A DNA stretch of 64,000 nucleotides from Oceanibacterium hippocampi (lineage in GTDB: Bacteria > Pseudomonadota > Alphaproteobacteria > Sneathiellales > Sneathiellaceae), in contig NZ_FWFR01000002.1 in assembly GCF_900172325.1 (NCBI RefSeq), positions 124,001-188,000 on the forward strand, given 5' to 3'. Shown here piece by piece: positions 39,279-51,365 of this stretch (position 1 is the stretch's first letter; each line of letters begins with the position of its first letter). A program made the position numbers and the translations under genes. The notes beneath the pieces were generated by a model, which saw only the letters and a list, made by a program, of their open reading frames with translations, did not search any database and had not been told where the DNA came from.

Positions 39279-40292
39279 ATGACGTTGCAGCGCAGCAGTG
39301 CAGAGAGCGATCCGATCGAGAGCGCGCCAGAGGTGACCGCGTCGCCGAAGCTGTCGGTCATCGTTCCGCTTTACAACGAGGAAGAGAATGTCGCCCCGAT
39401 GCATGACGCGATTGTCGCGGCGCTCGCCGACGGCGACCTCGATTACGAGATCGTCTTCGTCGACGACGGCAGCCGGGACGAGACCTTCGAGCGCGCCGCC
39501 GCGCTGAAGGACCACGACCCCCGCGTCCGGGTCGTCAAGTTCCGCCGCAACTACGGCCAGACAGCCGCCATGGCCGCCGGCATCGAACATGCCCGCGGCG
39601 AGATCCTCGTGACCATGGACGGCGACCTGCAGAACGATCCGACCGACATCCCGATGATGGTCGCGAAGATCGGCGAGGGTTACGACCTGGTCGTCGGCTG
39701 GCGGCACAAGCGGCAGGACAAGTTCTTCACCCGCATCCTGCCGTCGAAGATCGCCAACTGGATCATCGGCAAGATCACCGGCGTCCCGATCAAGGACAAC
39801 GGCTGTTCGCTGAAGGTCTACCGCGCGGCGCTGATCAAGCGGATCTCGCTCTACAACGAGATGCACCGCTTCATTCCCTTCATGAGTTCCCTGGCCGGAT
39901 CGCGCATCGCCGAGGTCAAGGTGAAGCACCACGCGCGCCGCTTCGGGAACTCGAAGTACGGCCTCTCGCGGGTCTACAAGGTGATGTTCGACCTGCTGGC
40001 GATCAAATCGATCCTGACCGTCGCCAAGCATCCGATGAAGATGTTCTCCGGTCTCTTCGCCATCGCGTCGGTGCTGTCGATGGTTTTCTTCGTCAACGCC
40101 TTCTTCTCCGGCGAGGCGAGCGTCGTCTTCATGGGCATGTCGCTGCTGTTCGGCGCGATGGCCACCCAGATGGGCTTCGCCATGCTCCTGGTCGTGCTCA
40201 TCTTCAAGACCGGCACGCTCCGCCGCGAGAATTTCGTCCATCTTTCCGCCCGTGCCGTCTGGCCGGACAACCGCAAGCAGAACGTGACATGA
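39279..40292 (+). CDS. glycosyltransferase family 2, DPM1/GtrB-like, with C-terminal membrane anchor
   Basis: A 337-aa GT-A enzyme. The catalytic domain (about residues 25-245) has LSVIVPLYNEEENVAP, FVDDGSRDETF and an intact DxD in TMDGDLQNDP. Two membrane helices follow (about 258-278 and 292-315). This is the layout of polyprenyl-phosphate glycosyltransferases such as DPM1, GtrB and ArnC. It likely loads a sugar onto a lipid carrier on the cytoplasmic face of the membrane. Start ATG 39279 is the first in-frame ATG before the domain, but its GGGG is very close; a later GTG is possible. It is the first gene of the cluster and overlaps the next GT2 by 4 nt. Confidence 0.9.
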   Translation: MTLQRSSAESDPIESAPEVTASPKLSVIVPLYNEEENVAPMHDAIVAALADGDLDYEIVFVDDGSRDETFERAAALKDHDPRVRVVKFRRNYGQTAAMAAGIEHARGEILVTMDGDLQNDPTDIPMMVAKIGEGYDLVVGWRHKRQDKFFTRILPSKIANWIIGKITGVPIKDNGCSLKVYRAALIKRISLYNEMHRFIPFMSSLAGSRIAEVKVKHHARRFGNSKYGLSRVYKVMFDLLAIKSILTVAKHPMKMFSGLFAIASVLSMVFFVNAFFSGEASVVFMGMSLLFGAMATQMGFAMLLVVLIFKTGTLRRENFVHLSARAVWPDNRKQNVT

Positions 40293-41224
40293 GCGAAAAG
40301 CCCGATATCTCCGTCATCGTCCCCGTAACCGAGCGTTACGACGACCCGGCCGCAGTTTACCGCGTCTACAAGGCCGGTATCGAGGCGACCGGCAAGAGTT
40401 TCGAATTCATCTACGTGCTCGACGGCGAATACCCGGAAATGATGGCCGCCCTCGAGGCCCTAAAGGGCGAAGGCGAGAATATCGTCATCATCGCCTTCAG
40501 CCAGTGGTTCGGCGAGGCGGCGGCGCTGACCGCCGGCTTCCGCAATGCCCGCGGCGAGATCCTGGTCACCCTGCCCGCCTACTTGCAGATCAAGCCCGAT
40601 CACCTGGCGCCGCTGGTCGAGGCCCTTGCCGACAAGGACATGGCGATCGCCTGCCGCGGCCCGCGTCTGGACGCCGGCTTCAACAAGCTGCAGAACCGGC
40701 TCTTCCATGGCGCGCTCCGCTTCCTGCTCGGTTCGAGCTTCCACGATCTCGGCTGCGGCGTGCGGGCGCTGAAGCGGGAGCTGTTCGAGGAAGTCGATCT
40801 CTACGGCGACCAGCACCGTTTCCTGCCGCTGCTGGCCGAACGCCAGGGCTTCAAGGTGACCGAGATCGTGCTGCCGCAGCACGAGAGCGACGCCCGGCCC
40901 CGGGTCTATTCCTTCGGGGTCTATACCCGGCGGATGCTCGACATCCTGACGATCTACTTCCTGCTGAAATTCACCCGCAAGCCGCTCCGCTTCTTCGGCC
41001 TGATTGGCTCGGGGATGATCGGCGTCGGCGGCCTCGTCGATCTCTGGGTCATTATCGAGCGGCTGTTCCAGGACCAGGCCCTGTCCGACCGGCCGGCGCT
41101 GATCATCGGCAGCCTGCTGATCCTGCTCGGCATCCAGACCATGTCGGTCGGCCTGATCGGCGAAATCATCATCTTCACCCATTCAAAGGATCTGCGAGAA
41201 TATCGCATCGAGAAAATCGTCTAG
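40289..41224 (+). CDS. divergent glycosyltransferase family 2 protein lacking the DxD motif
   Basis: A 311-aa paralogue of the preceding gene with the same GT-A plus two-helix layout. ISVIVPVTERYDD and FIYVLDGEYPE are recognisable. At the position of the metal-binding DGDLQ, this protein reads LPAYLQIKPD, so both DxD aspartates are missing. C-terminal helices are at about residues 232-255 and 270-293. It starts with ATGA overlap on the upstream stop, which implies balanced synthesis with the canonical enzyme. It may be a metal-independent enzyme, or a non-catalytic partner forming a heteromer; both are inference. Confidence 0.88.
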   Translation: MSEKPDISVIVPVTERYDDPAAVYRVYKAGIEATGKSFEFIYVLDGEYPEMMAALEALKGEGENIVIIAFSQWFGEAAALTAGFRNARGEILVTLPAYLQIKPDHLAPLVEALADKDMAIACRGPRLDAGFNKLQNRLFHGALRFLLGSSFHDLGCGVRALKRELFEEVDLYGDQHRFLPLLAERQGFKVTEIVLPQHESDARPRVYSFGVYTRRMLDILTIYFLLKFTRKPLRFFGLIGSGMIGVGGLVDLWVIIERLFQDQALSDRPALIIGSLLILLGIQTMSVGLIGEIIIFTHSKDLREYRIEKIV

Positions 41225-41377: not shown

Positions 41378-43240
41378 ATGGATATCGCGGAACTGAAGAC
41401 GGCCTTTCGGGAAATCGATGACCCGGCGGAGGCGCTGGCACGGCTTGCCACGGTCGATTTCGACAGCCTGAAGCCCGGCGAGATCAGCTTCCTCCATCGC
41501 AAGCTGAAGCGCCTTGCCCCGGCACCGGGGGCGAAGATCGCCTATCTCGGCAATCTCACCGTCGAGCCCCTGCCCGACTATGTCGACATCCGGGCCGCCT
41601 GCGGCGGCCTGGCGACCGCGAGCCACGTCGGCGCCTTCGGCCAGCATTACCAGGAGGTCATGAACCCGGCCTCCGGCCTGCATGCCTTTGCCCCCGACCT
41701 GATCCTGCTCACCCTCAGCCTGCGCGAACTGGCACCCGATATCGCCTTCCGCTTCTCCTCGCTCGACGGCGAACAGCGGGCCGCCGAACGGAACCGCATC
41801 GTCGGCCATGTCGCGGACTGGCTGGCGGCGGCGAAGAACGCGACGCAGGCGACCATCCTGGTGGCGAATTTCCCGGTCCCCGCGGCGCTGCATGCCGGGA
41901 TCGCCGATCTCAACGACCCGGATGGCGAGCGTGCCTTCTATGCCCGGCTCAATCTCGACATCCTCGAACTCTGCAGGGAAACCGCGCGGGCGACGCTGTT
42001 CGATCTCGACCGACTCGTCGCCCGGGTCGGGACCGAGCGCGCCTTCAGCCCGCGCCTCACCTTCCTTGCCCGCCGCGAATGGGACGAGCATCTGCTGCCC
42101 GCCTTCGCCGGCGAGCTGTTCCGCTATCTCGTGGCGCTCAAGGGGCTGACCCGGAAATGCCTGGTCCTCGATCTCGACAACACGCTGTGGGGCGGGGTGG
42201 TCGGCGAAGAGGGGCCGGACGGCGTCAAGGTCGGACCGGGCGATCCGGTTGGCGAAGCCTTCCTCGCCTTCCAGCACGGCATCGTCGCGCTGAAGGAGCG
42301 CGGCGTGATCCTCGGCATCGCCAGCAAGAACAATCCCGCCGACGTCGAGGAAGTCTTCGCCCGGCGGCCCGGCATGCCGCTCCGGCTCGAGGATTTCTCG
42401 GCCGTCCAGGTCAACTGGAACCACAAGCACGAGAGCCTCAAGGCGATCGCGGCCAGCCTCAATATCGGCATCGACAGCCTCGTCTTCCTCGACGACAACC
42501 CGGTCGAATGCGGCATGGTCCGCGAGATGCTGCCCGAGGTGAAGGTCGTGCAGATGCCGGACGATCCGGCGCTCTATCTCGATTGCCTGCGCGCCCTGCC
42601 CTGGTTCGAGCGCCTCTCGATCACCGGCGAGGACCGCGCCAAGGCCCGGCAGTATCTGGAGAACCAGAAGCGCGACGTGGCGCGCGAGACGACCGGCGAC
42701 CTGAACGACTATCTGAAGAGCCTCGGCACCGAGGTGATCTTCCGTCATCCGGTCGAGAAGGACGCCGACCGGATCCACCAGCTGTTCACCAAGACGAACC
42801 AGTTCAACACGACGACGATGCGCTACAGCCCCGCCGACGTGGAGCGCTTCATGACCGGTGACCGTTTCGACATACGCGTCGCCGACGTCAGGGACCGCTT
42901 CGGCGAACTGGGCACCGTCGGACTGATCCTGATCGATCGCGAGGGCGAGGTCCCGGCCATCGACAGTTTCGTCATGAGCTGCCGGGCGATGGGACGCGAG
43001 ATCGAATCGGCGATCGTCAACAGCGTGAAGGAAGAATATCTCCTGAGCGGCCGCTATCCGGCGCTAGAATGCCGCTATGTTCCGACCCGGAAAAACCAGC
43101 CGGTCGCCGAACTCTACGAGAGCCAGGGCTTCATCGTGGCCGGGCGCGATCCTGAAAGCGGCGCCAAGAACTACCGGCTGGCGGCGGAGAACGCAGCCCT
43201 GTTGCCTTGCGACCATATCCAATTGACCAAGGACGAGTAG
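41378..43240 (+). CDS. FkbH-like protein (HAD-IIIC phosphatase fold with SGNH-like N-terminus and GNAT-like C-terminus)
   Basis: A 620-aa cytoplasmic protein. The N-terminal 240 residues resemble the SGNH-like region seen in FkbH homologues. The HAD-IIIC motif LDLDNTLWGGVVGEEG has the nucleophile-position Asp265 and Asp267, with motif VFLDDNPVECGMVREMLP later. The last 150 residues (TKTNQFNTTTMRYSP ... AMGREIESAIVNSV) are GNAT-like. FkbH proteins are known to dephosphorylate 1,3-bisphosphoglycerate and load D-glyceryl onto an ACP. An ACP gene starts 4 nt after the stop, which supports that role here. There is no polyketide synthase in this cluster, so the glyceryl (or similar) group probably ends on a glycan. 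The longer upstream frame from 41309 is rejected. Confidence 0.93.
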   Translation: MDIAELKTAFREIDDPAEALARLATVDFDSLKPGEISFLHRKLKRLAPAPGAKIAYLGNLTVEPLPDYVDIRAACGGLATASHVGAFGQHYQEVMNPASGLHAFAPDLILLTLSLRELAPDIAFRFSSLDGEQRAAERNRIVGHVADWLAAAKNATQATILVANFPVPAALHAGIADLNDPDGERAFYARLNLDILELCRETARATLFDLDRLVARVGTERAFSPRLTFLARREWDEHLLPAFAGELFRYLVALKGLTRKCLVLDLDNTLWGGVVGEEGPDGVKVGPGDPVGEAFLAFQHGIVALKERGVILGIASKNNPADVEEVFARRPGMPLRLEDFSAVQVNWNHKHESLKAIAASLNIGIDSLVFLDDNPVECGMVREMLPEVKVVQMPDDPALYLDCLRALPWFERLSITGEDRAKARQYLENQKRDVARETTGDLNDYLKSLGTEVIFRHPVEKDADRIHQLFTKTNQFNTTTMRYSPADVERFMTGDRFDIRVADVRDRFGELGTVGLILIDREGEVPAIDSFVMSCRAMGREIESAIVNSVKEEYLLSGRYPALECRYVPTRKNQPVAELYESQGFIVAGRDPESGAKNYRLAAENAALLPCDHIQLTKDE

Positions 43241-43244
43241 TTAG

Positions 43245-43490
43245 ATGCACGACAGCCAGAATGTGGCCGACGAACTGGACGAGATCATCGCCGACATCTT
43301 CGATATCCGGGTCGGCAAGCTCCGGGACGAGATGACGCACGAGGATATCGAGCAGTGGGACTCGATCAATCACCTCAAGCTCATCACCGCGATCGAGGAC
43401 GAATACGACATCGAATTCTCGATGGCCGATGTGCAGGCGATCGACAGCATCGGCAAGCTCCGCGAGATCGTCGCCCGGCTGCGCGGCTGA
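43245..43490 (+). CDS. acyl carrier protein, cluster-dedicated
   Basis: An 81-aa ACP. The phosphopantetheine attachment site is Ser40 in EQWDSINHLKLI, a variant of the usual DSL motif (here DSI). The protein is acidic with the four-helix spacing of ACPs. It lies 4 nt after the FkbH-like gene and 15 nt before the acyltransferase, so it probably carries the group made by FkbH and presents it to the acyltransferase. It is not the housekeeping fatty-acid ACP, which should read GADSLDTVEL-like and sit with fab genes. Confidence 0.95.
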   Translation: MHDSQNVADELDEIIADIFDIRVGKLRDEMTHEDIEQWDSINHLKLITAIEDEYDIEFSMADVQAIDSIGKLREIVARLRG

Positions 43491-43505
43491 GGAGGCCTGC
43501 CGGAG

Positions 43506-44036
43506 ATGAAGATCGGACGCGTTGTCGCCCTGTTCCTGATGCCGCGGGCGCTGATCACGGCGCTCTACCTCGTGCGCTCGAAATGCTTCGTCAGTCCGCG
43601 CGCCGAGGTCGATTTCGGTGACACGATCCGGATCGGCAAGGGCAGCCGCGTCAGCGGCTTCACCCAGGTCAAGGCCTCCGATACCGGGCGCATCACGATC
43701 GGCAACGACACCTCGATCGCGGTCGGCTGCTGCATCGCCGCCGGCGCGGTCGGCATCACCATCGGCGACGATTGCCTGATCTCTCCCGGCGTCGTCATCC
43801 TGAGCGGCAACTACAAGTATGACCGGCTCGACATGCCGATCCGGAAGCAGGGCTACACCTCCAAGGGCGTCACCATTGGCAACAATGTCTGGCTCGGTTC
43901 GAACGTCGTCGTGCTCGACGGCTCGGTCATCGAGGACGGGGTGATCGTGACGCCGAACTCGGTGGTCTCCTCGCATCTGAAGCGGAACACCGTTTGTGAG
44001 GGCAGCCCGGCCAAGGTGATTTTCCGCCGCCGCTGA
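43506..44036 (+). CDS. hexapeptide-repeat (left-handed beta-helix) acyltransferase
   Basis: A 176-aa protein of the LbH superfamily (WcaF/WbbJ-like). Hexapeptide turns are visible: ITIGNDTSIAVGCCIAAGAV, ITIGDDCLISPGVVILSG, then VTIGNNVWLGSNVVVLDGSV and the closing GSPAKVIFRRR. A hydrophobic N-terminal helix (about residues 7-22) may tether it to the membrane. Known members acylate sugars using acyl-CoA. Placed 15 nt after an ACP gene, this one may use acyl-ACP as donor; this is inference. ATG 43506 follows GGAGG about 10 nt upstream. Confidence 0.92.
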   Translation: MKIGRVVALFLMPRALITALYLVRSKCFVSPRAEVDFGDTIRIGKGSRVSGFTQVKASDTGRITIGNDTSIAVGCCIAAGAVGITIGDDCLISPGVVILSGNYKYDRLDMPIRKQGYTSKGVTIGNNVWLGSNVVVLDGSVIEDGVIVTPNSVVSSHLKRNTVCEGSPAKVIFRRR

Positions 44037-44113: not shown

Positions 44114-44977
44114 GTGGAACAGGTGCGGGACAAGGCGGATAGGGTGATACCGGACGATCGTGAGGGTGATCGCCTCGCCGGTCCGCATCTCGTCGATGCC
44201 CATGTCCACTGCTATCCCTGTTTCGGCGAGGTCCGGCTGTTCGACGCCGCGCGGGACAACTTCTCCGCCGTCGGCGGCAGGGCCGTGGACGGCGGCGTGC
44301 TGGGCTGGCTGCTCTATACCGAGACCGCCCGCGATCATCATTTCCGCGCCTGCCGCGATCGCGCCGACGGCCCGGCGCAGGCCGGCGACTGGCGCTTCGA
44401 GACGACCGGCGAGGCGATCTCGCTCCGCGCCGTGTCCGCGGACGGCGCCACGCTCGGCCTCGTCGCCGGCCGCCAGATCGTCACGTCGGAAGGGCTCGAG
44501 GTGCATGCGCTCGGCACCGACCGGGAATTTCCCGACCGGAAGCCGGCGCGCGAGACGCTGATCGCGGTCCGCGAGTCGGGCGCGCTGCCGGTCATCCCCT
44601 GGGGGTTCGGCAAATGGTGGTTCGCACGCGGCCGCCTGCTCCGCCAGCTTCTCGATGAACGTGGCGCGCTTGGCGCCTTCCTGCTCGGCGACAACGGTGG
44701 CCGTCCGGACCTGCTGGGCACGCCCGAGGGGTTCCGGATCGCCGGCCGGTCAACGATCCCGGTGCTGCCCGGTTCCGACCCGCTGCCGCTCGAGGGCGAG
44801 GAGCGCCGCACCGCGAGCTACGGTTTCCGCCTCGAGGGCGCGATCGACCGGTCGCTGCCCGGCGCCGGCCTGCTCGGCCTGATGCGCGGTCTCGACGGCT
44901 CGCCCCCGACGATCGGCCGGCGCGCCGGCACGCTCGAGTTCCTGATCAGCCAGAGCCGCATGCGGCTGCCGCACTAG
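44114..44977 (+). CDS. PHP-like putative metal-dependent hydrolase, cluster-associated
   Basis: A 287-aa protein without signal peptide. The HxH motif in LVDAHVHCYPCFGE (about residues 26-39) and the late LPGSDPLPLEG (about 215-225) sit where PHP-superfamily phosphoesterases and amidohydrolases keep metal ligands. IPWGFGKWWFARGR and LLGDNGGRPDLLG are further distinctive blocks. GTG 44114 has a CGGAG ribosome site 5 nt upstream. It is flanked by the acyltransferase and a GT4 on the same strand. I cannot name a substrate; a phosphorylated or acylated glycan intermediate is a guess. The 77 nt before it are AT-richer and could hold a second promoter. Confidence 0.7.
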   Translation: MEQVRDKADRVIPDDREGDRLAGPHLVDAHVHCYPCFGEVRLFDAARDNFSAVGGRAVDGGVLGWLLYTETARDHHFRACRDRADGPAQAGDWRFETTGEAISLRAVSADGATLGLVAGRQIVTSEGLEVHALGTDREFPDRKPARETLIAVRESGALPVIPWGFGKWWFARGRLLRQLLDERGALGAFLLGDNGGRPDLLGTPEGFRIAGRSTIPVLPGSDPLPLEGEERRTASYGFRLEGAIDRSLPGAGLLGLMRGLDGSPPTIGRRAGTLEFLISQSRMRLPH

Positions 44978-45033: not shown

Positions 45034-46209
45034 ATGACCCGCCGCGCTCTCGTGATCGCGCCCCAGCCGTTCTTTTCGCCGCGCGGCACGCCGTTCAGCG
45101 TCTATTACCGGACCATGGTGACCGCCGAACTCGGCCTCGAGGCCGACCTGCTGACCTATGGCGAGGGCCAGGATGTCGACATTCCGGGCGTCCGGATCGT
45201 CCGCATTCCGCGGCTTGCCTTCCTCGGGCCGATCAAGGTCGGGCCGTCCTGGCAGAAGCTGGTGCTCGATGTCTTCATCGTCTTCTGGACGCTCGGCCTG
45301 CTGATCCGCAACCGCTACGATTTCGTCCACGCCCACGAGGAGGCGATCTTCTTCTGCCGCTTCTTCAAGCCGCTGTTCCGCTACAAGCTCGTCTACGACA
45401 TGCATTCGAGCCTGCCGGAGCAGCTCACCAACTACAAGTTCACCACCGCGCGCTCGCTGATCGGCCTGTTCGAATGGCTCGAGAACAGCGCGCTCAAGGC
45501 GGCCGACGCGGTCATCACGATCTGCCCCGAACTCGCCGACTATGCCGAGGCCCGCGTGCCCGACAAGTCGCGGCATTTCCTGATCGAGAACTCGATCTTT
45601 GACACCGTGAAGCTGAAGGACCCGGCGAATGCAGGCGAGACACCGGACCCGGTGCCGCTGCCCGACGACCGACCGCTCGTCGTCTATGCCGGGACGCTCG
45701 AATCCTACCAGGGAATCGACATCCTGATCCCGGCCTTCGCCCGGGCGCACGCCTCTTGCCCGGAGGCGCTGCTGCTGATCGTCGGCGGCAGCGAGGCTCA
45801 GGTCGCGAAATTCCGCGCCCTGGCGGCTGCCGAGGGGATCGCCGACGACGTCATCCTGACCGGCCGGGTGCCGCAGGTGACCGCGAAATACTACAACAGC
45901 CGGGCCAGCGTCATCACCTCGCCGCGCTCGACCGGTACCAACACGCCGCTGAAGATCTACGAGCAGCTTGCCAGCGGCGTGCCGCTGGTCGCGACCCGGA
46001 TCCGCTCGCATACCCAGGTGCTGACCGACGACGTCTGCTTCCTTTGCGAGCCGACGGCGGACGGCATGGCGGCGGCGCTTGTTGCCGCTCTGACCGACGC
46101 GGAGAAGCGCGCGGCCGTGATCGCGGGCGCGAAGGCGCTTTACGAGAAGGACTATTCCCGCCCGGCCTACGAGGCGAAGATGCGGGCCCTGCTCGAGGTG
46201 ATCGAATGA
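45034..46209 (+). CDS. glycosyltransferase family 4 (GT-B)
   Basis: A 391-aa GT-B enzyme. The N-terminal Rossmann-like half has PFFSPRGTPFSVYYRTM (typical acceptor-binding loop) and HAHEEAIFF. The C-terminal nucleotide-sugar half has VVYAGTLESYQGIDILIPAF and TGTNTPLKIYEQLASGVPLV, the latter with the conserved E of the EX7E-like element. Cytosolic or peripheral membrane. It probably adds a sugar to the lipid-linked acceptor made by this cluster. GGAG precedes ATG 45034; the gene overlaps none of its neighbours but is spaced by only 34 nt from the epimerase gene. Confidence 0.92.
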   Translation: MTRRALVIAPQPFFSPRGTPFSVYYRTMVTAELGLEADLLTYGEGQDVDIPGVRIVRIPRLAFLGPIKVGPSWQKLVLDVFIVFWTLGLLIRNRYDFVHAHEEAIFFCRFFKPLFRYKLVYDMHSSLPEQLTNYKFTTARSLIGLFEWLENSALKAADAVITICPELADYAEARVPDKSRHFLIENSIFDTVKLKDPANAGETPDPVPLPDDRPLVVYAGTLESYQGIDILIPAFARAHASCPEALLLIVGGSEAQVAKFRALAAAEGIADDVILTGRVPQVTAKYYNSRASVITSPRSTGTNTPLKIYEQLASGVPLVATRIRSHTQVLTDDVCFLCEPTADGMAAALVAALTDAEKRAAVIAGAKALYEKDYSRPAYEAKMRALLEVIE

Positions 46210-46243: not shown

Positions 46244-47242
46244 ATGACCGGATTCTGGAAGGATCGGGCCGTCCTGGTAACCGGCGCCGGCGGCTTTACC
46301 GGCAGCAACCTTGCCCGGCGCCTGGCCGCCGAGGGTGCGCAGGTACGCGCCTTCGTCCGCACCGGCGGTTCGCGCCGCGACCTGCCCGAGGCAGTCGAGA
46401 TGTTCGAGGGCGACCTGACCGACCCGGTCGATTGCGCCCGCGCCGTCGAGGGCGTCGACACGGTCTTCCATGTCGCCGCCGTGTTCCGCCAGCTGAAGGG
46501 CGGCCCCGCCGTGCTGAAGGCGGTCCATGTCGACGCCACCGGCCACCTGATCCGCGCCGCCAAGGCGGCCGGCTGCCGCCGCTTCGTGCATACCTCGACG
46601 ATGGGCGTGCACGGCCATGTGAAGCACGGGCCGGGCGACGAGAACACCGAATACGGCCCCGGCGACGACTACCAGGACACCAAGCTCGAGGGCGAACTGC
46701 TGGCGCGCGCGCTTTCGGCGGAGATCGGCATGCCGCTTGCCGTCGTGCGCCCCTGCGGGATCTACGGCCCCGGCGACACCCGCTTCCTGAAGATGGTCCG
46801 GCCGATCAGCAAGGGCCGCTTCTTCATGATCGGCGACGGCACGCCGCATTACCATTTCGTCTTCATCGACGATCTCGTGGCGGGGATCATGCTGGCCGGC
46901 GAGAAGGACGCCGCGGTCGGCGAGGTCTTCTTGATCGGCGGGCCGGACCATCCGACGCTGAACGAGCTTGCCGCGACGATCGCCGACCTGCTCGGCGTCG
47001 CGAGACCTCGCCTGCGCATCCCGGTCGGGCCGATCATGTTCGCCGGCCGGGTCTGCGAGGCGCTCTGCCAGCCGTTCGGGATCGAGCCGCCGCTGCATCC
47101 GCGCCGGGTCGCCTTCTTCACCAAGAACCGGGAGTATTCGATCGACAAAGCGCGGAAGCTGCTCGGCTACGCGCCCGCGGTCGATCACCGGGAAGGCTTC
47201 CGCCGGCAGATCGAGTGGTACCGGAAAGAGGGCCTGATCTAG
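46244..47242 (+). CDS. NAD-dependent epimerase/dehydratase (extended SDR)
   Basis: A 332-aa extended SDR. VLVTGAGGFTGSNLARRL is at the N-terminus, catalytic Tyr and Lys are in YQDTKLEGE with Ser/Thr in HTSTMGVHG, and VVRPCGIYGPGDTRF is the substrate-side block. FYHFVFIDDLV-type residues appear as YHFVFIDDLVAG. It acts on a nucleotide sugar or on a lipid-linked substrate; the sequence also resembles the 3-beta-HSD/dihydroflavonol-reductase branch, so sugar specificity is not certain. Last gene of the co-directional glycan cluster. Confidence 0.9.
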   Translation: MTGFWKDRAVLVTGAGGFTGSNLARRLAAEGAQVRAFVRTGGSRRDLPEAVEMFEGDLTDPVDCARAVEGVDTVFHVAAVFRQLKGGPAVLKAVHVDATGHLIRAAKAAGCRRFVHTSTMGVHGHVKHGPGDENTEYGPGDDYQDTKLEGELLARALSAEIGMPLAVVRPCGIYGPGDTRFLKMVRPISKGRFFMIGDGTPHYHFVFIDDLVAGIMLAGEKDAAVGEVFLIGGPDHPTLNELAATIADLLGVARPRLRIPVGPIMFAGRVCEALCQPFGIEPPLHPRRVAFFTKNREYSIDKARKLLGYAPAVDHREGFRRQIEWYRKEGLI

Positions 47243-47360: not shown

Positions 47361-47804
47361 ATGATCACCAGTCTCCGGATGATCGCGATCGGGCTCACGG
47401 CTCTCGCGCTGGTTCCGAGCGCGGCGCACCTGTTCGAACTGCCCGGCAAGATCGATCTCGGCCGCGACGCCTATTTCACCGTGCAGGCTGTTTATGCCGG
47501 CTGGTCGCTTTTCGGCCTGCCGATCATCGCCGCCATCATCGCCAATGTCGCGCTCTTCCTTGCCGAACGACGACGCGCGCCCGGCCCGGCCCGCTGGGCG
47601 CTGATCGCGGCGTCGCTGATCGCGGTCAGCCTCGGCATCTTCTTCACGTGGATCTTCCCGGCGAACCAGGCGACGGCGAACTGGACCGTCCCGCCCGAGA
47701 ACTGGGCGGCGCTTCGCCGCGACTGGGAATACGGCCATGCGGCGAACGCGTTCATCGTCGGTACGGCCCTGATCGCGACCGCCATGGCGATCGTCAAACG
47801 GTAG
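47361..47804 (+). CDS. DUF1772-like four-helix membrane protein
   Basis: A 147-aa protein with four hydrophobic segments (about 5-22, 40-65, 77-98 and 122-142). The block ANWTVPPENWAALRRDWEYGHA before the last helix resembles the DUF1772 (anthrone-oxygenase-like) family pattern of Trp, Arg/Pro, W-x-x-L-R and E-x-x-H-A. Function unknown. It is separated from the glycan cluster by 118 nt and may have its own promoter. Convergent with the GlpD-like gene. Confidence 0.75.
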   Translation: MITSLRMIAIGLTALALVPSAAHLFELPGKIDLGRDAYFTVQAVYAGWSLFGLPIIAAIIANVALFLAERRRAPGPARWALIAASLIAVSLGIFFTWIFPANQATANWTVPPENWAALRRDWEYGHAANAFIVGTALIATAMAIVKR

Positions 47805-47838: not shown

Positions 47839-49365
47839 TCAGTCCGGCTCGCGGCCTTCGTGGCGGGCGAGCCGCCCGGCCACCGCGTCGATCTCCTCGA
47901 TGCGCTTCGCCTCGTTCCAGCCCAGCCGGTCGGCCATCAGCGCCGCGATGGCCTCGATCTGCCCGTCCGCGATCCGCCCGCCCTCGCCGAGCCGGCTTCG
48001 CCGGAAGACCAGGTCGCCCAGCCGCATCGCCATCTCCTCGTCCACCGCCGTGTCGACCCGGGCGCGCAGAGAGGCGCGGTTCTCGTAGCGCTCGGGCAGC
48101 GGGTCGAGCGCGGGGAACGGCACGTTCCCGGTTGTCGACGCCACCGCCGGCCTGTCGAGCTTCGCCATCGCCTGGTGGACGGCGCGCTCGGCGATCAGCC
48201 GGGCGGTCGTGTACTTGACGCCGACGACACTCATCAGGCCGTCGACACCGTCGCTCGCGCGGTGATCGATGATATTGCCGCGCTTGGCCTGGCGGACCTT
48301 GCCGCTGTCGTCGTCGAGCGTGGCCGGGGTCAGCCCGGCATAGCAGTAACGGACATCCTCGCGGCTCAGTCCGAGCCCGGGCGCGGCGCCGTTGATCTCG
48401 TCCAGGAAAGCGGCGATCTCGTCCTCGCGGAAGTCGAAATCCGAGGGATCGCCGGTGAACGGCAGGTGCTCGGTCCCGACCACGGTGGTCTCGCCCCAGG
48501 GGGTGAGGAAGAACATCCGCCCGCCGCGGTCGACCACGGAATCGGCCTTGCGGCGGCTGACCACCCCGATTGCCGCGTTGCCGGTCAGGCGCCGGCCGAT
48601 CACCAGGTTCATTGCCCGCTGCAGTTTCGGAAACGGCTGCAGCGAGAATTTCCGGAGCGACCGGCCAAGCAGGTCGGTGACCAGCGGCCCCGCGCAGTTG
48701 ACGGTCAGCCGCGCATGCACGGAGAAACTCCGTCCGCTCAGCCGGTCCTCGACGACCGCGCCCTCGACCCGGTCGCCGGTCATCAGGAAATCCATGGCCT
48801 CGAGATGGTTGGCGATCCGTGCGCCGCGTTCGACCGCGCCCATCAGGCAGGCCAGTTCGACCCGGTTGGCGTCGCGCATCTGGCCGTCATGCCAGACTCC
48901 GCCGCCGCGCAAGCGCGGCCCCGCATCGGGCAGCAGGGCGCGGGCCTCGATCGTGTCGATCACGCCGGCGGCCGGCACCAGGCCCTGCCGGCTGCCGCGG
49001 GTCAGCATGTTGTAGGTGAGCGCGGCGATGCGGAAGGCCTCCGGCCCGCGCGCGGCGTAACCGTACAGCGGGATGACGAAGCGGAGCGGCGTGATCAGCG
49101 TCGGCGCGGCGCGCAGCCAGAAGCTCCGCTCCCGCGACGAGGCGAGCAGGCGGCCGATGTCGGCCTGTTGCAGGTAGCGGATGCCGCCGTGGATGAGCTT
49201 GAGCGAATTGTGCGAGGTCAGCGCCCCGAAATCGTCGCGCTCGACGAGCGCCACGCTGAGCCCGCGCAACGCCGCATCGCGCGCCACCGAGGCGCCGTAT
49301 ATCCCGCCGCCGATCACCAGGACGTCGAAGACGTCGTCGACCAGGCCGTCCAGATCCCGCTTCAC
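47839..49365 (-). CDS. glpD: FAD-dependent glycerol-3-phosphate dehydrogenase
   Basis: A 508-aa peripheral-membrane flavoenzyme oxidising sn-glycerol 3-phosphate to DHAP, feeding electrons to ubiquinone. It has FDVLVIGGGIYGASVARDAA (FAD loop), SHNSLKLIHGGIRYLQQ (family signature), LTPWGETTVVGTEH and SVVGVKYTTARLIAE. Length is typical. The start is GTG 49365 with GAGGCG upstream. No glycerol kinase or facilitator lies nearby. The downstream-acting pair (methyltransferase, AlkB) shares the strand, but the link is not obvious. Confidence 0.9.
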   Translation of the reverse strand: MKRDLDGLVDDVFDVLVIGGGIYGASVARDAALRGLSVALVERDDFGALTSHNSLKLIHGGIRYLQQADIGRLLASSRERSFWLRAAPTLITPLRFVIPLYGYAARGPEAFRIAALTYNMLTRGSRQGLVPAAGVIDTIEARALLPDAGPRLRGGGVWHDGQMRDANRVELACLMGAVERGARIANHLEAMDFLMTGDRVEGAVVEDRLSGRSFSVHARLTVNCAGPLVTDLLGRSLRKFSLQPFPKLQRAMNLVIGRRLTGNAAIGVVSRRKADSVVDRGGRMFFLTPWGETTVVGTEHLPFTGDPSDFDFREDEIAAFLDEINGAAPGLGLSREDVRYCYAGLTPATLDDDSGKVRQAKRGNIIDHRASDGVDGLMSVVGVKYTTARLIAERAVHQAMAKLDRPAVASTTGNVPFPALDPLPERYENRASLRARVDTAVDEEMAMRLGDLVFRRSRLGEGGRIADGQIEAIAALMADRLGWNEAKRIEEIDAVAGRLARHEGREPD

Positions 49366-49375
49366 CGCCCGCGCC

Positions 49376-50194
49376 TCACTTCCTGACGAAGGCGATCATG
49401 TGATGACCGCAGCGCCGCACGAGGGCGCGCGGCAGGAGATTGAAGAGATCGACGAAGACGAGGTTGAACAGCCGCGCCTTCAGCCCGCCATGCACCTTGG
49501 TCCGCACCGGGAAACGCTCCAGCACCAGGTCGACCTCGGCGAAGGGCTCCAGCATGCCGCGGAACTCGCCCGGAGAGTACCAGTGAAATTCCGGCGATTG
49601 CAGATGGTCGATCTCGACCTTCATCAGGCGATGCAGGAAGCGCAGCCAGGAATGGCGGTTGACCATCATCAGCACGGCCCGCCCGCCTGGTTTGAGGACC
49701 CGGTGGATTTCCGCCACCATGCGCTCCGGATGCGCGGTGAAATGCAGAACCGTGTGGCAATAGACGAAATCGACGCTGTTCGCCTCGAGGGTCATCGCCT
49801 CGCCGTTCATCAGCAGGAACCGGCCGGACAGGCCGCGCTGCTCGAAGTTGGTGCGGGACAGCGCGATCGCGCGTGGGGCGATGTCGATCCCGATGACGCC
49901 GGCGCCGCCGGCGGCGAATCGGCCGGTATCGTTGGCCAGGCCGCAACCGACGTCGAGCACGGTCCGGCCAGCCTCGCCGTCGTAGTCGATGATTCTCTCG
50001 AGATAGTCGAGCTTCTCGAAACGATAGGCCTCGGCTTCCCGGAAAAACCGTTCCGTTCCCGGTTCGGCCCTCGTCGCCGGCCAGTCGGTGACATGGGTTT
50101 CCCAATAGGTACGGACGGCCGCGATCCGGTCATCCCCGGCCGTCACGGGCGTGGCGTCGGCGGCATGATCGGGGCGGCGTTCGGGGTCGCTCAT
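49376..50194 (-). CDS. class I SAM-dependent methyltransferase (UbiE/COQ5-like)
   Basis: A 272-aa soluble methyltransferase. SAM motif I VLDVGCGLANDTGRFAAGG is at about residues 82-100; motif II IDIAPRAIALS and motif III-like HRVLKPGGRAVLMMVNRHS follow. The C-terminal third (SWLRFLHRLMKVEIDHL ... LLPRALVRRCGHHMIA) is more hydrophobic and may bind a lipid substrate. ATG 50194 is chosen since the domain starts shortly after; the longer frame has no ribosome site. It lies 10 nt from the GlpD-like gene, so they are likely co-transcribed. Confidence 0.88.
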   Translation of the reverse strand: MSDPERRPDHAADATPVTAGDDRIAAVRTYWETHVTDWPATRAEPGTERFFREAEAYRFEKLDYLERIIDYDGEAGRTVLDVGCGLANDTGRFAAGGAGVIGIDIAPRAIALSRTNFEQRGLSGRFLLMNGEAMTLEANSVDFVYCHTVLHFTAHPERMVAEIHRVLKPGGRAVLMMVNRHSWLRFLHRLMKVEIDHLQSPEFHWYSPGEFRGMLEPFAEVDLVLERFPVRTKVHGGLKARLFNLVFVDLFNLLPRALVRRCGHHMIAFVRK

Positions 50195-50288
50195 CGAAGG
50201 CTCGGATTTCGCGGAAGGACTGTTCTCGGCGTTGCGCCAGCATAGCGGCAAAGGGGTAAATTTTCGCCTATCGCCCAAGCCCCGACGA

Positions 50289-51365
50289 TCAGCCGGCGAC
50301 CGGCACCTCGCCGCCCGCGAGATCCCGGGCGCGCCAGGCGGCAACCCTCGGATTCATGATCCGGAACCAGAGCGGCGGCACCATCGCGGCCAGGAACATC
50401 GCCCCGTAGCCGCCCGGAAGCTGCGGCGCGTCGGGCCAGTGGCGGAGCAGCTGGTAGGGTCGCCCCGCGGCGAAATGATGGTCGGAATGGCGCGCCAGGT
50501 TGATCAGGAAGAGATTGCTGACCAGGTGCGAGGAATTCCACGAATGCCAGGGTCGGACCCGCTCAGGCCGGCCGTCGCCGCCGATCCGGCGGGCGAGCCC
50601 GTAATGCTCCAGGTAGTTGATGATCTCGAGCTCGGTGACGGCGACCAGCGCCTGGGCGACGAAGAAGAGCAACCCGGCCGGCCCGAAGACGGCGAGGACC
50701 ACCACCAGAAAGGTCGTCTGCAACAGGCCGTAGCGGAGCATCCGGTTGCGCAGGCTCCAGAACGGAATGCCGCGCCTGCGGCGTCTCTCCCGTTCCAGCC
50801 GCCAGGCGCTCTGGGCGCCCCGGACGATCGTGCGCGGCAGGAAGCGGTAGAAGCTCTCGCCGAGCCGGGCGGTTGCCGGGTCGTCCCGGGTCGCCACGTT
50901 GCGGTGATGGCCGTGGACATGCTCGATGCAGAAATGGGCATAGAGGACCGAACCCATCAGCAGTTCGGCCAGCATCCGGTCGAACCGCCCCGGCCGGTGC
51001 ATCAGTTCATGGGCGAAGGTGATGCCGACGGTCCCGGTGCTGATCCCGATCGCAAGCGTGAGGCCGATGATCTCGTGCGGCGCGAGGGCACCCGATGCGA
51101 CGAGGCCGAGCGACCAGACCAGGAGCGCCGTCTGCACCGGCACCCAGGCCCAGACCAGCAGCCGGTAGGGCCGGGATCGGGTGATGCGCGCCTCCGTCGC
51201 CGGGTCGGGATTCCCCTGCCAGGGACCGACGATCTCGTCGATCAGCGGGATGATCGCGAAGACCTGGAGGACCGGAAAGAACATCCACCAGCCACCCTGC
51301 TGGACCACGAGGACGGTGATCGCGGTCGTCAGGTACGAGACTGAGAAGGCAAGCGGCGAAAGCAT
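50289..51365 (-). CDS. alkB: alkane 1-monooxygenase-like membrane di-iron enzyme (AlkB)
   Basis: A 358-aa integral membrane hydroxylase. It has about six hydrophobic segments and the histidine boxes HELMH, EHVHGHHRN and RHSDHH, plus the NYLEHYGL block characteristic of AlkB and XylM relatives. Substrate: medium-chain alkanes or related hydrocarbons oxidised at the terminal carbon. No rubredoxin or AlkT gene is adjacent, so the electron donor must come from elsewhere. ATG 51365 has CGGAG 8 nt upstream. Confidence 0.92.
   Translation of the reverse strand: MLSPLAFSVSYLTTAITVLVVQQGGWWMFFPVLQVFAIIPLIDEIVGPWQGNPDPATEARITRSRPYRLLVWAWVPVQTALLVWSLGLVASGALAPHEIIGLTLAIGISTGTVGITFAHELMHRPGRFDRMLAELLMGSVLYAHFCIEHVHGHHRNVATRDDPATARLGESFYRFLPRTIVRGAQSAWRLERERRRRRGIPFWSLRNRMLRYGLLQTTFLVVVLAVFGPAGLLFFVAQALVAVTELEIINYLEHYGLARRIGGDGRPERVRPWHSWNSSHLVSNLFLINLARHSDHHFAAGRPYQLLRHWPDAPQLPGGYGAMFLAAMVPPLWFRIMNPRVAAWRARDLAGGEVPVAG

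Follow-up and report, generated by a model that had tools for sequence, protein, structure and literature searches.

Organization of the locus

The window, a 64,000-nucleotide stretch of the genome of the alphaproteobacterium Oceanibacterium hippocampi (RefSeq contig NZ_FWFR01000002.1, positions 124,001 to 188,000), encodes a tightly spaced trio comprised of an FkbH-like protein, an acyl carrier protein (ACP), and an LbH (hexapeptide) transferase-like protein, set among glycosyltransferase genes (Table 1). The ORFs agree exactly with the positions of the trio and the gaps within it (4 nt from FkbH to ACP and 15 nt from ACP to LbH) given in the preliminary description, and its account of the flanks, viz., two GT2 genes upstream and a run of PHP-like, GT4, and epimerase/SDR genes downstream, likewise holds. 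The two upstream genes, GT2a and GT2b, overlap by 4 nt, and the start codon of the former is uncertain (39111, 39165, or 39279, with the end at 40292). The unit in the window is larger than the trio, reaching to about position 50344 with a GlpD-like oxidoreductase gene and a methyltransferase gene on the opposite strand, both of which we count in the unit because they have counterparts in related cassette loci (that of the methyltransferase in L078; see below). A small membrane protein with a sub-threshold match to Anthrone_oxy is encoded between the SDR and GlpD-like genes (47361-47804), and a fatty-acid-desaturase/AlkB-like membrane protein (50289-51365), which was not seen in the other cassette loci, adjoins the methyltransferase.

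Table 1. Genes of the unit in the window, with predicted products and the matches on which the assignments are based
Predicted product	Coordinates	Strand	Basis
GT2a, DPM1/ArnC-like GT2 with intact DGDLQNDP (polyprenyl-phosphate sugar synthase type)	39279..40292	+	PF00535 122 bits; ArnC is the best model match
GT2b, degenerate GT2 with PAYLQIKP replacing DxD	40289..41224	+	PF00535 57 bits
FkbH-like HAD-IIIC plus acyl-transfer domain, predicted D-glyceryl-ACP synthase	41378..43240 (ATG 41378)	+	TIGR01686 283.2 bits
Dedicated ACP, Ser within WDSINHL	43245..43490	+	PF00550 24.9 bits
LbH (hexapeptide) transferase-like protein without catalytic His	43506..44036	+	PF00132 50.4 bits
Orphan PHP-like protein, HxH kept	44114..44977	+	No Pfam/NCBIfam family; fold matches to PHP
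GT4 glycosyltransferase	45034..46209	+	PF00534 77 bits
NAD-dependent epimerase/SDR, HpnA-like	46244..47242	+	PF01370 139 bits; TIGR03466 169 bits, under cut-off
GlpD-like FAD oxidoreductase	47839..49365	-	PF01266 134 bits
Class I SAM methyltransferase, auxiliary, start probably internal	49376..50344	-	PF08241 80 bits

The FkbH-ACP pair and the polyketide alternative

The FkbH-like protein lies above the curated TIGR01686 cut-off (283.2 versus 146.65 bits) and retains intact DLDNTLWGG and SCRAMGR motifs, with D265, D267, and C535 invariant among the five homologues; C535, the Cys of the SCR segment, we take to be a functional residue. Homology to BF1531 (PDB 3slr) covers the N-terminal and HAD parts of the protein. 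The ACP only just passes PF00550 (24.9 bits versus a cut-off of 20.8), and the Ser of its WDS motif aligns both with the phosphopantetheine Ser of AcpP and with ACPs adjoining other FkbH genes. The loading of glyceryl from 1,3-bisphosphoglycerate in FkbH-ACP systems is published (PMC7489565), and, going by family membership, the window FkbH would load D-glyceryl onto the cassette ACP. The FK520 methoxymalonyl-ACP module and the tetronate glycerate-utilization operon (Mad7/Mad8) share the same FkbH HAD-IIIC motifs and an adjoining stand-alone ACP; unlike them, the locus in question is without a PKS or FabH-like partner and sits with GT2/GT4 and LbH genes.

The precedent of the FkbH family, a Methylosinus FkbH-ACP pair that adjoins KASIII and PKS genes, and several Kiritimatiellae FkbH genes that follow what by eye is a FabH-looking gene would all accord with FkbH and ACP feeding a tetronate- or polyketide-type product. 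We nevertheless hold such a product to be highly improbable here, as the window genome (4.83 Mb, 99.4% complete, with FkbH in single copy) contains a single complete ketosynthase gene (474-aa frame) and the cassette has no KASIII. The further matches in the ketosynthase search are weak and partial, lie in frames of about 390-410 aa, and are probably thiolases. The lack of a PKS in the cluster, pointed out in the preliminary description, thus extends to the whole genome, and neither a PKS nor a KASIII gene was seen next to the trio, be it in the window or in the cassette relatives. Given the single full ketosynthase and the missing PKS, a polyketide destination for the glyceryl-ACP is very unlikely. 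In other lineages, namely Kiritimatiellae, Verrucomicrobia, and Lentisphaerae, a gene recognized by eye as FabH/KASIII-like precedes FkbH (L022, L023, L027, L031, L035, L036, L055, L058, and L063), which suggests tetronate-like chemistry in gut bacteria.

Distribution and gene order of the cassette

When 84,980 species genomes were scanned for FkbH, four relatives were recovered that match along almost the entire protein, at 43-47%; the remaining 61 lie at 30-40%, mostly over shorter stretches. The four come from MAGs assigned to Gammaproteobacteria (L008, genome G502), Ectothiorhodospiraceae (L009, G503), Thermoanaerobaculum of the Acidobacteriota (L010), and 'Proteobacteria' (L011, on one contig with L078, G505). 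The order FkbH-ACP-LbH with tight spacing is found in the window, L008, L009, and L010, and in L011/L078 FkbH and ACP are adjacent and the LbH gene of the cluster lies about 7 kb upstream of them. The preliminary description had made its reading depend on conservation of the trio, and such a unit beside glycosyltransferase genes indeed recurs in distant genomes; this recurrence in other loci indicates that the arrangement is not due to chance. As about 591 genomes were searched directly and the one contig-level scan relied on short exact patterns, further cassettes may exist beyond the five known genomes.

The gene order in L008 and L009 is PHP-GT4-GlpD-SDR-FkbH-ACP-LbH. In L010 it is GT2a-GT2b-AsnB-LPG_TM-GT4-FkbH-ACP-LbH, a separate contig (L080) carrying PHP-GlpD-SDR, and in L078, read in plus-strand coordinates, it is GT2b-GT2a-Wzx-LbH-SDR-GlpD-methyltransferase-GT4 (all on the minus strand) and then LPG_TM-SDR-FkbH-ACP (plus strand). 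A GT2a-GT2b pair is present on a second contig in G503; PHP is missing from G505, and a close GT2a/GT2b pair is missing from G502, a 2.9-Mb MAG. Overall, eight to nine cassette genes recur in shuffled order in five very distantly related bacteria, with at most one to two parts absent per relative. As read from the sequences, the cassette is comprised of GT2a and a predicted dead GT2b, FkbH, ACP, LbH, a degenerate PHP, a GT4, an HpnA-like SDR, and a GlpD-like protein; as a unit it is apparently undescribed in the searchable literature. Flippase-like LPG_TM, Wzx-like, and PMT_2 genes also occur near the cassette in the relatives.

In a tree of 38 FkbH rows the five cassette FkbH proteins form one clade with 100/100 support. 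The membership of this clade, drawn from different phyla, together with the shuffled gene order, points to horizontal spread. We rejected vertical inheritance, as FkbH was found in only six of 116 related genomes (the window's included), and the 20 further genomes listed for the same family yielded none; the PHP-like gene is found in one of 398 genomes of the phylum, that of the window itself. A further 'acyltransferase' near an FkbH gene (L094) is a short hexapeptide-like protein that aligns poorly and was not counted as part of a trio.

Glycosyltransferases, oxidoreductases, and the PHP-like protein

The DxD motif is retained by GT2a and absent from GT2b in each of the window, L077, L010, and L078, and the GT2a homologues of the latter three adjoin GT2b every time (the GT2b identities are 57, 49, and 45% in G503, G505, and G504, respectively). 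On these grounds, GT2b is predicted to be a conserved pseudo-glycosyltransferase partner, which always accompanies an active GT2 in the four genomes, these spanning more than one phylum. Homologues of the GT4 (44% to the L078 copy), the SDR, and the GlpD-like protein are found in all five genomes, the last adjoining cassette genes. The GlpD-like protein has AGLTP against the AGLRP of GlpD, i.e., a Thr for an Arg (alignment to 3da1), and falls under all G3P dehydrogenase cut-offs (205.9 versus 360 bits for the GlpD equivalog); the loss of this Arg and the sub-cut-off scores suggest that its substrate may differ from that of GlpD. A second GlpD-like relative is encoded elsewhere in the window genome (G000:C16:948963-950096). 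The methyltransferase, shared by the window and L078 only, matches L078:13201-14073 at 61%, the latter likewise adjoining a GlpD-like gene.

The orphan PHP-like protein, a marker of the cassette, has homologues in L008, L009, and L080, and H30 and H32 of its HxH motif are the only invariant His residues, whereas a PHP phosphoesterase would be expected to have further metal-binding His beyond HxH. Its fold matches, 7rty (PsfC; the top match, E=2e-4), 7ug9, and 2anu, correspond to the PHP members PsfC, RNase AM, and TM0559 and are weak, with TM-scores of about 0.35-0.5 for a query model of pLDDT 71.6.

An LbH protein with an altered active site

Around the catalytic segment, the LbH protein and maltose acetyltransferase (Maa) align without gaps (APGVHIYTATHPID in Maa, SPGVVILSGNYKYD in the window). 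The His of Maa at the aligned position (TATHP) is catalytic; it is replaced by Tyr in the window LbH and in all four cassette homologues, and the alignment contains no invariant His. Tyr103 and Tyr105 (YKYDRLD) are invariant in the cassette LbH proteins, and Q115 and C75 are also conserved. Most of the other LbH proteins encoded in related genomes have His at the aligned position (SDHDH, PTNH); the Tyr is not confined to the cassette, as the LbH of L083 (TAGTYRYND) also has it. The best NCBIfam match is to WbbJ, under the cut-off (83.2 versus 243 bits), with Maa at 61.3 versus 314 bits. The AlphaFold model, built from a shallow alignment, is poor, with a pLDDT of 70, and Foldseek returned no match at E < 0.001; the model was therefore left out of account. 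The protein thus shares with the WbbJ and Maa O-acetyltransferases the hexapeptide fold and homology over the active-site segment, but differs from them in scoring far under the curated cut-offs and in the Tyr that replaces the catalytic His. Lacking the catalytic His of the family, it is therefore not a standard O-acyltransferase, and the Tyr in its place makes substrate-assisted transfer to an amino group, or a mechanism based on Tyr, likelier than His-dependent O-acyl transfer.

The identification of this protein as a sugar acyltransferase in the preliminary description consequently stands in part: FkbH-ACP pairs adjoin other types of acyltransferases, some of them in polysaccharide regions, but the catalytic His is absent. 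The LbH protein may instead have a structural role or be an unrelated enzyme that uses acetyl-CoA. In the former vein, a dead LbH might act as a scaffold or regulator, with acyl transfer from the ACP left to another protein, for example FkbH through its C-terminal domain or the PHP-like protein, and the absence of a conserved His and the conservation in the cassette of another apparently dead enzyme, GT2b, would fit this; yet the would-be active-site segment is strongly conserved (the YKYDRLD region, Q115, and C75), which suggests function, and we deem a dead LbH quite improbable. We view as unlikely, to a lesser degree, that FkbH and ACP supply an acyl-ACP for a glycolipid or small natural product, made with the SDR, the GlpD-like enzyme, and the desaturase/methyltransferase, and that LbH, though encoded in the operon, has no part in this and acetylates sugars from acetyl-CoA in the ordinary way. 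The best matches of LbH are indeed acetyl-CoA enzymes (WbbJ, Maa), the SDR, GlpD-like, and methyltransferase genes resemble FkbK/I/G-type glyceryl-ACP processing, and MaoC and FabG-like genes come after the trio in L008. However, the three genes of the trio stand side by side in four genomes, the Tyr-for-His replacement sets LbH apart from most acetyltransferase relatives, and neither the window nor the cassette relatives have a PKS or KASIII beside the trio.

Proposed function and comparison with known systems

We favor over the alternatives, at about even odds, a reading in which the cassette has spread horizontally and uses glyceryl-ACP, or a derivative, to acylate a lipid-linked sugar or surface glycan, most likely via LbH. 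FkbH would take the glyceryl of 1,3-bisphosphoglycerate, dephosphorylate it, and load D-glyceryl on the cassette ACP, where the group might be oxidized by the SDR and GlpD-like enzymes and, in some clusters, methylated. LbH, the best candidate for the transfer, would then pass the glyceryl or derived group from the ACP to a sugar. Judging by their families, GT2a would charge polyprenyl phosphate with a sugar, assisted by the inactive GT2b, and the GT4 would add a further sugar. The acyl group is perhaps placed as an N-acyl on the lipid-linked sugar; against an amino-sugar acceptor, the cassette is without an aminotransferase. More ambitiously, and in our estimation somewhat doubtfully, the cassette might constitute a hitherto undescribed pathway shared across phyla: an LbH without the His would move a glycolytic C3 acyl directly from a dedicated ACP to a polyprenyl-linked sugar, together with an obligate pair of dead and active GT2 proteins and re-purposed GlpD-like and PHP-like enzymes.

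FkbH-ACP pairs lie beside an MBOAT gene in S. meliloti pSymB, Rhodobacteraceae SC52, and Tistrella and beside WcbI in Niveispirillum (annotated plasmids). As in the cassette, the pair adjoins a likely sugar acyltransferase; these clusters differ in having no LbH and in their FkbH proteins falling on another branch of the tree. In C. jejuni, the fkbH-domain gene cj1302 lies in the flagellin glycosylation locus, and a di-O-methyl-glyceric pseudaminic acid is found on flagellin (PMC7099621, PMC3068675). This locus resembles the cassette in being a glycan locus with an fkbH gene whose product bears a glycerate derivative, and differs in its nonulosonic acid, flagellin acceptor, and other neighbors; the glycerate there has been tied to Cj1295 and not directly to fkbH (PMC3068675, PMC7099621). 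Together, the MBOAT/WcbI neighbors of FkbH-ACP and the C. jejuni glycerate locus favor ACP-to-sugar transfer of glyceryl. A literature search on FkbH with glycan acylation returned almost nothing; among the papers searched, none ties glycan glycerate to FkbH-ACP chemistry, and no direct assay of cj1302 came to light. The sphingan glyceryl route was set aside, the sphingan paper giving no glyceryl gene.

LpxA and LpxD have the LbH fold, keep the catalytic His, and use acyl-ACP donors, so the contention in the preliminary description that an ACP donor would be unusual for an LbH sugar acyltransferase does not stand. An ACP, RfbK, has also been proposed for O-antigen acylation in V. cholerae O1 (PMC12208996). 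The LpxA/LpxD and RfbK-RfbL tetronate pathways thus share with the proposed route an acyl-ACP donor for sugar acylation, but their acyl group is fatty or tetronic, and the His of LpxA/LpxD is absent from the cassette LbH. Acyl-ACP as an LbH donor and glycerate substituents on bacterial glycans were known already; what is new is the tie of a glyceryl-type loader to an LbH protein, the loss of the His from that protein, and how large the cassette is and how far it has spread. Compact, rare, and conserved, the cassette offers a small testable gene set for a path that would lead from glycolysis to acylated sugars, and its LbH a case of an acyltransferase that may function without a catalytic His. 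The FkbH-ACP-acyltransferase module of S. meliloti pSymB is tractable in the laboratory; the rkp genes for capsule export are about 5 kb away from its ACP-FkbH pair with MBOAT (L093:5798-10833).
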